DNA of 64,000 nt from the NCBI RefSeq assembly GCF_000010725.1, contig NC_013854.1:2199001-2263000 (forward strand), given 5' to 3'. This document shows, one piece after another, positions 33,174 through 35,790 of the stretch. The translations under genes were made by a program, and so were the position numbers. Under the pieces are notes generated by a model, which was not told where the DNA came from, made no database searches, and saw nothing but the letters and a program-made list of their open reading frames with translations. The DNA is from Azospirillum sp. B510 (GTDB taxonomy: Bacteria > Pseudomonadota > Alphaproteobacteria > Azospirillales > Azospirillaceae). The stretch's first letter is position 1, and each line of letters begins with the position of its first letter.

Positions 33174-33908
33174 TTACCCGAACAGCGCGTCGATGTCGGC
33201 CTGGCTGATGTTGCCGCTCTCGGGGGTGGCTTCGGCCGGACCATGCAGGTCGAGGTTCTCGTCCTTCTTGGTGACGGACGGCGGCAGCGGCATCGCCTCG
33301 AACTCGCGCTTGTTCCACAGGCCCATCATCGCGTCGACGCGCTCCTCGATGAAGGACATGGCACGGACGACCTTGGTGATGCGCTGTCCGGTCAGATCCT
33401 GGAAGTTGCAGGCCTCGTAGATGCGGACGATGACGTCGACCATGTCGTTGACGCGGTCGTTGTGATAGCCCTCGGGCAGCGAGGACTTCAGCTCCGACAC
33501 CACCTCTTCCAGTTCCTCGGCGCAGGCCATGATGGTGTTGGTGGCCGCCTCCGTCGCGGCGACGACGGCGCTCAGCTCCTGGCTGGCCTGTTCGAACTTG
33601 TCGTCGCCGGCCAGCGGGTGGCGGATGGCCGCCATCTCCACCTTGGTCGCCTTGATGCGACCGGAGATGTCGGCGATCTCCACCTGGATCTGGTCGATCT
33701 GCGCCGCGTCCATGGCCAGGAAACGGTCCAGCTTGGAACCGAGTTCGCTGACCGCCCGCAGCACCTCGGTATTGTCGGCCTGGACCACCTGGGTCGGCAC
33801 CGGAAGGACGGCGGCGGCGGCGGCGGCGGCCCCGTCCTCGATCAGGGATTGAAACGGGTGCCCGGACTTACGGGCCTTCTGAAGCTCGGCCATGAAGGGC
33901 TTGGTCAT
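33174..33908 (-). CDS. cheZ: CheZ-family phosphatase, single docking motif
   Basis: 244 aa from the ATG at 33908, chosen because GAGG lies 9 nt upstream; the ATG at 33917 is an alternative. The long four-helix region ends with the CheZ catalytic segment NFQDLTGQRITKVV, with Asp171 and Gln175 corresponding to the residues that dephosphorylate CheY-P in E. coli CheZ. After a short charged linker the protein ends in ISQADIDALFG (residues 234-244), which resembles the CheY-binding peptides of FliM (SQAEIDALL) and of the CheZ C-terminus. It is the last gene of cheY - cheZ - cheZ, all on the minus strand. Confidence 0.85.
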   Translation of the reverse strand: MTKPFMAELQKARKSGHPFQSLIEDGAAAAAAAVLPVPTQVVQADNTEVLRAVSELGSKLDRFLAMDAAQIDQIQVEIADISGRIKATKVEMAAIRHPLAGDDKFEQASQELSAVVAATEAATNTIMACAEELEEVVSELKSSLPEGYHNDRVNDMVDVIVRIYEACNFQDLTGQRITKVVRAMSFIEERVDAMMGLWNKREFEAMPLPPSVTKKDENLDLHGPAEATPESGNISQADIDALFG

Positions 33909-34151
33909 CTGCTTCATCCTCGGTCCCGCCTCTCGGAAACGGCCGGCTCTGGCCTTGTGGTGGTGAGTGTCTGGTCTTGCGCGTGGTCTGTGGCGTCTGA
34001 TGTGCTGTTGGACCGGCTGACCGCGCCCCATCCCGCCATCGGCGGGCAGGGCGGGTCAATCCGGGGAAACCGTAGCCCTGATCCCTTGGCGCCCCCAATC
34101 CTCGGGCGTCCCCGATCCCTGAGCGGTTCGGGCACGGCCGCGGACGGCCGC

Positions 34152-35252
34152 CTAGCCGAACAGGGCGTCGATGGCGGCCTGATCCAGCGGTGTCGGGGGC
34201 TCGGCCGCCGCGGGCGGCGGCGGGGGCGGTGCGGCAGGCTTGGCGGCGGCCTTGGCCTTGGGTGCGGCACCCGGCGGTTTCGGCACCGGCTTTTTGGCCG
34301 GCGGCGGCGCGGGCGCGGGGGCATCGAACATGCTGTCGATGTCGGACTGGCTGGCCTGAACCGGCGCGGCCGCCGGTGCCGGACTATCGAACATGCTGTC
34401 GATATCCGACTGGCTGGCCGTGACGGGCGCCGCGGGCGCGGGGGCATCGAACATGCTGTCGATGTCGGACTGGCTGGCCTGGACAGGCGCGGCCGGTGGG
34501 GGCGGGGGCGGCGGAGGAGGAGCGACCGGAGCCGGGGCCGGGCTGCTGAACATGCTGTCGACATCGGCCTGGCTGACACCGAGACCGTCCAGCTGCGGAC
34601 CGTTCAGGAGATGGGCGTCGGGACGCTTGTCCGTCTGCTCCTCCTTCACGACGATGCCGGACAGCCCGTCCTCGCCCCAGATGCTGATCATCGCCATCAC
34701 GCGCTGCTCGATGTAGCGGAGCGCGTTGACCACCTTGCTGGTGCGCTGGCCGGTCAGATCCTGGAAGGAGCAGGCGGTGAAGATGTCGTTCACCTGATTG
34801 TCGATGTCGCCGCAGATCGACGGATCGGCACCGCCGGCCCGCAGCTTGCCCGACAGCTCCATCAGCCGCTCGGCGGCGTTCAGGATCTCGAAGGACGCGC
34901 GCTCGGTCGAGATGACGATGGCGTCCAGCTCGTTGGTGGCGGACAGGATCTTGTCCCCGCCGCCATCGGGTGGCCGCAACGCCGCCACCTCCCGCCTCGC
35001 CTGTTCGATCGAGGCGGCCATCTCCATCAGCTCGCGGCGCAGGACGCCGACATGCTTGCCGGCCTCCACCGCCTCGTTCTGCCGGCTCCAGGAGTCGCGG
35101 AACTCCTGGAGCATGGCGCGCACCTCTTCCGTCGCGGCCCCGAGGGACCGCCGGTGTAGCCGCCGCAGGAACGCCCTGCCCTTCGCCGATCGGGCGATGG
35201 CGTCCTCGATCTGCTCGAATTCCTCATCGGACAGCTGCGGAAGCTGCTCCAA
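34152..35252 (-). CDS. cheZ: CheZ-family phosphatase with five tandem CheY-docking-like motifs
   Basis: 366 aa. Residues 1-200 form a CheZ helical domain with catalytic segment SFQDLTGQRTSKVV (Asp165, Gln169). The ~165-residue tail is proline/alanine-rich and contains SQADVDSMF (227-235), SQSDIDSMF at 260-268, 280-288 and 301-309, and DQAAIDALF (357-365). Each copy resembles the FliM N-terminal and CheZ C-terminal peptides that bind CheY. The number of copies is unusual for CheZ, which normally has one. The neighbouring cheY is the presumed partner. The DNA of the three identical peptides is nearly identical, indicating recent unit duplication. Dephosphorylating activity is inferred, not shown. 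Confidence 0.85.
   Translation of the reverse strand: MEQLPQLSDEEFEQIEDAIARSAKGRAFLRRLHRRSLGAATEEVRAMLQEFRDSWSRQNEAVEAGKHVGVLRRELMEMAASIEQARREVAALRPPDGGGDKILSATNELDAIVISTERASFEILNAAERLMELSGKLRAGGADPSICGDIDNQVNDIFTACSFQDLTGQRTSKVVNALRYIEQRVMAMISIWGEDGLSGIVVKEEQTDKRPDAHLLNGPQLDGLGVSQADVDSMFSSPAPAPVAPPPPPPPPPAAPVQASQSDIDSMFDAPAPAAPVTASQSDIDSMFDSPAPAAAPVQASQSDIDSMFDAPAPAPPPAKKPVPKPPGAAPKAKAAAKPAAPPPPPPAAAEPPTPLDQAAIDALFG
34322..34480 (-). repeat. Three coding repeats of the SQSDIDSMF segment
   Basis: Nearly identical DNA units encode SQSDIDSMFD at 34326-34352, 34389-34415 and 34449-34475, at 63- and 60-bp spacing, flanked by Ala/Pro codons. They lie inside the second cheZ gene. Confidence 0.9.
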
Positions 35253-35424: not shown

Positions 35425-35790
35425 TCAGCCGCCGATGACGGCCTGGATCTTCTGCTTCAGCGTGTCGGCGTTGAAGGGCTTGACGATGTAGTTGTTAACG
35501 CCGGCCTGCTTGGCGGCGATGACGTTCTCGGTCTTGCTCTCGGCGGTGACCATGATGAAGGGGGTCGCCGCCAGCTTCGCGTCGGCGCGGATTTCCTTCA
35601 GGAGCTGCAAGCCGGTCATCGGCTCCATGTTCCAGTCGGAGATGATGAGGCCGAACTTGCTCTCACGCAGCTTCGCCAGCGCCGAAACGCCGTCACCGGC
35701 CTCGTCGATGTCGGTGTAGCCGATCTGGGTCAACAGGTTCCGCACGATGCGCCGCATGGTGGCGTAATCATCGACGACGAGGATCTTCAT
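35425..35790 (-). CDS. cheY: Chemotaxis response regulator CheY
   Basis: 121 aa. Stand-alone receiver with no output domain. Acidic residues Asp7-8, phospho-acceptor Asp52 (IISDWNMEPMTG), Thr82 and Lys104 are all in place, and the MKILVVDDYATMRRIVRNLL start is CheY-typical. Phosphorylated CheY would bind the flagellar switch and be reset by CheZ. It is the first gene of a cheY-cheZ-cheZ set, 172 nt ahead of the five-motif cheZ. No cheA, cheW, cheR or cheB is present in the window. Confidence 0.93.
   Translation of the reverse strand: MKILVVDDYATMRRIVRNLLTQIGYTDIDEAGDGVSALAKLRESKFGLIISDWNMEPMTGLQLLKEIRADAKLAATPFIMVTAESKTENVIAAKQAGVNNYIVKPFNADTLKQKIQAVIGG

Follow-up and report, generated by a model that had tools for sequence, protein, structure and literature searches.

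CheZ-A of the soil bacterium Azospirillum sp. B510 is a CheZ-family phosphatase, an 'off switch' of chemotaxis, of 366 residues whose 197-residue, Pro/Ala-rich tail carries exactly five docking-like motifs. CheZ is usually pictured with one docking helix per chain. Judged from its sequence, CheZ-A is probably an active CheY-P phosphatase in which the tail would act as a tandem docking 'antenna' for CheY-P. The gene, cheZ-A, was assigned from PF04344 and its open reading frame, and occupies positions 34152..35252 on the minus strand of the window (the whole 64,000-nucleotide stretch of DNA that was analysed).

Against the Pfam profile for CheZ (PF04344), CheZ-A scores 46.6 bits (cut-off 30.7), and it falls below the cut-offs of both NCBIfam CheZ equivalog models (38.6 versus 257 bits and 9.2 versus 350 bits); by profile, CheZ-A is a CheZ according to Pfam, with no orthologue-level match to the equivalog models. 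The start codon read from the sequence is TTG, with a ribosome-site-like GGGGAG upstream. Among PDB sequences, CheZ-A matches E. coli CheZ best (1kmi_Z, E = 7.5e-4, residues 151–236 aligned), and in this phmmer alignment FQDLTGQ and LLNGPQ of CheZ-A pair with identical strings. The catalytic FQDLTGQ spans residues 163–169 (34746..34766, minus strand); within it, D165 and Q169 pair with the E. coli residues D143 and Q147 and are invariant in all 27 aligned CheZ-A orthologues. CheZ of Azorhizobium caulinodans shares with CheZ-A an AxxFQ beside the DxxxQ (PMC7750401, excerpt). A 941-residue open reading frame on the plus strand overlaps cheZ-A and is most likely a mirror artefact, since the codons of the motifs show purifying selection in the minus-strand frame.

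The preliminary description had placed a CheZ paralogue with its FQDLTGQ kept, together with the five motif strings, at these coordinates, and re-reading the sequence agreed on every point, with the minus strand as the coding one. The term paralogue is also apt, as the genome has four cheZ genes, with motif counts of 5, 1, 2 and 1. The second, cheZ-B, lies downstream of cheZ-A (33174..34031, minus strand; PF04344, 38.3 bits), its true start possibly being a later ATG (MKQMTKPF...), and a motif search found a single C-terminal docking-like motif in its product, SQADIDALFG (33180..33206, minus strand). The third (C1:217 kb; L018:8851-10119, minus strand) has two motifs, VSQDAIDALF and, at the C-terminus, ISQADIDALF, with a poly-Pro/Gly spacer between them, and has a two-motif relative in locus L206. 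The fourth (C1:1369 kb) has a single motif close to the C-terminus, the E. coli-like DQDEIDRLL. Upstream of cheZ-A is cheY (35425..35790, minus strand), a receiver-only response regulator identified by PF00072 and by a PDB match to E. coli-type CheY. Of 39 related loci, 33 have cheY directly upstream of cheZ-A and 30 have a gene resembling cheZ-B downstream; several of the others are truncated at contig ends. All 29 named Azospirillum-type loci have both genes beside cheZ-A, and their CheY is 96–100% identical to that of the window. From this gene order, the window CheY is the likely substrate of CheZ-A.

The five tail motifs were located by motif search, the first of them also by alignment with VASQDQVDDLL of 1kmi_Z. 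All lie on the minus strand: motif 1 is SQADVDSMF (in VSQADVDSMF; residues 227–235, 34548..34574), motifs 2, 3 and 4 each read SQSDIDSMF (residues 260–268, 34449..34475; residues 280–288, 34389..34415; residues 301–309, 34326..34352), and motif 5 is DQAAIDALF (residues 357–365, 34158..34184), which ends one residue short of the C-terminus (DQAAIDALFG). At the DNA level, Tandem Repeats Finder reports an array with a period of 60/63 and about three copies (34298..34495, minus strand) that spans motifs 2–4. The five copies noted in the preliminary description compare with a mean of 0.0009 loose motifs in 50,000 composition-preserving shuffles of the CheZ-A tail, and the loose regex finds 161 motifs in 37 orthologous tails together, where shuffling gives a mean of 0.015. 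A strict DNA pattern finds six matches in the 7.6-Mb genome, all six inside cheZ genes; reversed as a control, the pattern finds none in the same 7.6 Mb. Across the genus, the strict pattern matches in 44 of 45 genomes, with 5–8 matches each among the matches listed, where the reversed pattern has none among those listed for the same 45; in the class sample, the pattern matches in 128 of 385 genomes and the reversed pattern in 17 of 385 (the latter counted by hand). In these other genomes a match is a pattern match, in cheZ or elsewhere, and at least one (G008:C6) looks unrelated. The shuffles and pattern controls, together with the pN/pS ratios given below, rule out a chance or low-complexity artefact.

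Motif 1 occupies the position that the only CheY-docking helix has in E. coli CheZ (SQADVDSMF on SQDQVDDLL in the phmmer alignment), and the distance from the catalytic Gln to motif 1 is 58 residues, against 54 from that Gln to the docking SQ in E. coli CheZ. The two proteins (PF04344; 1kmi) are alike in the DLTGQ region, in the LLNGPQ before the motif and in this near-equal spacing; they differ in that E. coli CheZ has one C-terminal docking motif and CheZ-A has five on its long tail. For E. coli CheY and FliM, the contacts are FliM Q8 with V108, D12 with K119, and I11 and L14 with I95/A99/Y106, and CheZ and FliM use one common face of CheY (PMC3774744, excerpt). Salmonella FliM reads ILSQAEIDALLN, so its contact residues Q8, I11, D12 and L14 fall on motif positions 2, 5, 6 and 8, and the corresponding Q2, I/V5, D6 and M/L8 are in register with the contact table of PMC3774744 (excerpt) in all five CheZ-A motifs. 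The two FliMs of the same genome carry the motif as NQDEIDSLL and SQEEIDRLL. The CheZ-A motifs thus resemble the FliM N-terminus of the Salmonella and E. coli type (SQxEIDxLL) with the four contacts kept, but FliM has one copy near the N-terminus in the FliMs read here, whereas in CheZ-A the copies are strung in tandem along the tail of a phosphatase and end in F.

On the other side of the putative interface, the window CheY aligns without gaps with E. coli-type CheY. Equivalents of K91, Y106, V108 and K119 are kept, V replaces I95, and four positions are changed (A90 to S, K92 to T, A99 to K and K122 to A), so the docking pocket appears largely, though not wholly, conserved. The docking-type motif is not confined to CheZ: in other alphaproteobacteria it is also present in a DUF2497 protein and in the tail of a DctM transporter, so the motif alone is no proof of CheY binding. 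Taken together, the position-by-position match, the purifying selection on the copies and the Pro/Ala-rich tail make multivalent CheY docking the best reading of the motifs, one that is well supported at the sequence level. The likeness to the CheY-binding pattern of the FliM N-terminus and CheZ C-terminus, drawn in the preliminary description, is therefore upheld position by position.

Two of the proteins outside CheZ, and a third, are described here in their own right. The DUF2497 protein (L097:1069-1728, minus strand, genome G356; 72.4 bits) carries SQNDVDSLL and SQDDVDSLF; DUF2497 is PopZ-like, and the protein is a possible polar hub. A DctM-type TRAP transporter subunit (L078:4-1596, plus strand, genome G073) ends in an acidic tail whose repeats read TQDEVDQLF and TQKEIDDLF. 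The third, a protein of 174 residues with no Pfam match (L079:1006-1530, plus strand, genome G237), has a C-terminus of exactly LSQDDIDALF.

Two AlphaFold2 models were made, and both are weak. The full-length model (alignment of 27 orthologues, mean pLDDT 63.9) predicts a helical CheZ core at residues 9–192 (34677..35228, minus strand), with the long helices of CheZ at residues 9–19, 23–91, 101–139, 144–162 and 171–192, and with short motif helices at motifs 1 and 5 only. In the CheZ family, two helical hairpins, one from each chain of the dimer, make up a four-helix bundle; of this fold, the model of the single CheZ-A chain predicts the long helices. With this model as query, Foldseek matched nothing in the PDB at E ≤ 0.001, and none of the 50 matches listed is CheZ. 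The tail-only model, built from ten five-motif orthologues and of low confidence (mean pLDDT 59.2), predicts exactly five short helices in coil, one for each motif. Motif 1, at the place equivalent to that of a docking helix after a flexible linker, is predicted to be helical in both models.

The number of motifs varies among orthologues. The preliminary description had suggested counting the copies across CheZ homologues and had given weight to five of them. Among the 30 Azospirillum-type orthologues (the window and 29 named loci, one of which falls among Azospirillum under the name Roseomonas), 1 has three motifs, 14 have four, 10 have five, 4 have six and 1 has seven, and across all CheZ-A relatives the count ranges from 2 to 9. 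This range rules out five as a fixed copy number and gives no support to five as a special one, and strains labelled A. brasilense likewise have four or five. Two motifs are found in four Niveispirillum-type loci and in the MAG loci L060 and L061, and nine in the MAG locus L059, where three copies read G at position 4. Elsewhere in the family, complete tails have seven (G654, G672 and G656), eight (G655) or two motifs (G652, G663, G673 and G391). We left out of the counts L057, which ends before the tail, and L069 and L070, each with one C-terminal motif on a contig-cut tail; L242 and L244 (cut by the locus end) and L176 (lacking an FQDxTGQ frame) were also dropped. A tree of the 37 CheZ-A orthologues requires 12 or more changes in exact copy number, and the switch between two and more than two motifs takes at least two changes, in one direction or the other, on a CheZ-A tree whose deep branches lack resolution.

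The first and C-terminal motifs are always present in CheZ-A orthologues, and the extra copies lie between them. Internal spellings are genus-specific (SQ[AS]DIDS[ML]F, NQDDIDAMF, SQSDIDALF and TQSDIDALF), and the linkers, which are 72% Pro plus Ala, vary in length (internal linkers, 7–20 residues). Positions S1, Q2, D4, I5, D6 and F9 are kept in all 80 internal copies of the 30 Azospirillum-type orthologues. The motif regex itself requires Q and D, hence a separate scan for decayed copies, which found no window beyond the counted motifs in Azospirillum-type tails with at least four of nine positions matching. Comparison of the copies inside each gene gives a pN/pS of 0.058 for the motif (pS 0.35), 0.17 for the six codons after it and 0.39 for the five codons before it. 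The motif copies are under purifying selection.

Beyond CheZ-A and its orthologues, a single motif is the usual form. Other alphaproteobacterial CheZs typically have a tail with one SQxDIDxLF, where CheZ-A has five motifs; among 90 alphaproteobacterial CheZ tails, a census that includes CheZs also present in loci picked by motif, 75 have one motif, 12 have two, one has four and two have none. The four-motif tail, the only one with more than two, belongs to an Azospirillum orthologue. This census leaves out G144:C31 and G079:C1, two alphaproteobacterial matches that exceed the cut-off, along with several that fall below it. In CheZs drawn from a phylum-wide and a class-wide sample, 45 of the 49 tails from other classes have one motif, four have none by regex and no tail has two or more, and the regex-negative tails show variants such as SQHDADDLL. 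Two genomes picked for many matches contain CheZs outside the family with four (L087, G402) and three (L095, G330) motifs, which are putatively separate cases of tail expansion in other alphaproteobacterial families. An arrangement unique to the species or genus is ruled out by G402 and G330 and by the rest of the family, which has it too; the multi-motif CheZ tail is a family-wide, variable trait, not a single oddity. We also observed that three CheZs of other classes (L177, L178 and L179) have C-termini of the form SQxDADDLL/SQVDADALL, with Ala replacing the Ile/Val of the motif, and that two alphaproteobacterial CheZ-like proteins (L182 and L185) have no recognisable docking motif, L182 reading FQDLTAQ in place of FQDLTGQ.

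We propose that the flexible Pro/Ala-rich tail would present several interchangeable CheY-docking helices where one is usual, each motif gripping the α4-β5-α5 face of CheY-P as do FliM and the C-terminus of E. coli CheZ. As a capture antenna, the tail would keep several CheY-P molecules at high local concentration by the two active sites of the dimer and feed them into those sites, and a loaded tail would also keep CheY-P away from FliM. What we infer for CheZ-A is that each motif binds CheY, that the enzyme is catalytic and dimeric, and that the tail works as an antenna. Gaussian-chain arithmetic with assumed parameters puts all five motifs at a local concentration of ∼0.3–1.8 mM, 4 nm from the end of the core. 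Copy number would be an adjustable setting of capture capacity, altered through tandem duplication of the motif-plus-linker unit. Two-motif orthologues persist, and many copies are thus not needed for function.

The preliminary description had seen in the five copies a multivalent CheY-P phosphatase or scaffold that could make signal termination cooperative. Multivalent docking stands as the best reading of the sequence; the step from copy number to cooperativity does not. A CheY with one docking face sees the motifs as independent sites, whose occupancy is non-cooperative (Hill coefficient of 1), so that more copies would add capacity and local concentration and not cooperativity, and we rejected multivalency alone as an argument for it. 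Cooperativity would need a second link, for example one CheY-P bridging two CheZ dimers. In the E. coli complex, CheY-P is two-sided to CheZ, with its active site meeting the bundle and its α4-β5-α5 face meeting the tail motif. It is a speculative and rather doubtful idea that CheY-P, when abundant, cross-links CheZ-A dimers (up to 2 × 5–9 motifs per dimer) into clusters that disperse as it is consumed. If true, clustering would make termination switch-like and self-limiting, with a threshold set by motif copy number, and would rescue cooperativity by a route beyond multivalency alone.

Other explanations of the tail were weighed against the antenna. It could mainly sequester CheY-P from FliM, and between polar and lateral motors, with catalysis secondary, in which case copy number would set buffer capacity and not the rate of dephosphorylation. 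The four CheZs of the genome together have nine motifs and its two FliMs one apiece, and the farthest motif lies 165 residues from the CheZ-A core, both as expected of a sink; a pure sink, however, would not need the catalytic Asp and Gln, which are invariant in 27 of 27 orthologues, and we regard both the sink and its buffering role for copy number as possible but unlikely. Neutral expansion, by slippage of GC-rich tandem DNA and with drift in copy number that has no effect beyond one or two motifs, would account for the tandem array, the two-motif orthologues and the frequent changes in copy number (at least 12 on the tree, with four or five motifs among strains labelled A. brasilense). It would also predict decay, yet six positions are kept in every internal copy (80/80), no decayed copy was found and pN/pS is 0.058, and other genera of the family have complete tails of 7, 7, 7 and 8 differently spelled motifs; we consider neutral expansion improbable.

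The remaining alternatives concern what the motifs bind. Were the spellings DVDSMF, DIDSMF and AIDALF to dock different CheYs, one CheZ could serve several pathways, and the first and last motifs do hold their own spelling while the internal copies change; use of CheY1, CheY4, CheY6 and CheY7 has been reported for A. brasilense (PMC8100600, excerpt). Any one gene has internal copies that hardly differ, which fits more of the same rather than different partners, and such an adaptor role seems to us distinctly improbable. Binding to a non-CheY partner, such as a flagellar switch protein or a hub at the cell pole, would make the tail a localisation tether; the two motifs of the DUF2497 protein from another alphaproteobacterium, and the CheA-independent arrival of Azorhizobium CheZ at the pole (PMC7750401, excerpt), would suit it. 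The conserved positions are nevertheless those that contact CheY (PMC3774744, excerpt), and motif 1 lies at the known CheY-docking place in the 1kmi_Z alignment, leaving the tether highly unlikely.

Published accounts touch on parts of this system. One C-terminal CheY-binding region is mentioned for Azorhizobium CheZ, and ChePep of epsilonproteobacteria provides a CheZ-linked accessory in another lineage, set apart from the docking tail of CheZ-A by its description as a separate CheZ-binding protein (PMC7750401, excerpt). In A. brasilense, a cheZ transcript is increased with MBOA (PMC12421955, excerpt), and the word 'CheZ' is absent from the excerpted text of PMC8100600 on the CheYs of this species. 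We found no description of a multi-motif CheZ tail in open-access full text, including excerpts of PMC2829493, PMC8429497, PMC8563088 and PMC7012829, most subscription journals lying outside this literature; within that scope, the statement in the preliminary description that no CheZ with this arrangement was known to be described holds. A search of open-access full text for the motif strings returned none, and had little power, as the FliM string SQAEIDALL likewise returned none.

Termination of the CheY-P signal sets the response speed of a swimming cell. With 2–9 docking-like helices on a core and in a neighbourhood that are largely kept, CheZ-A and its relatives form a ready-made natural valency series, which lets one ask how phosphatase rate, CheY-P buffering and motor bias depend on the number of docking sites. 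The range of copy number suggests that evolution has been tuning the strength with which the swimming signal is captured and cancelled.
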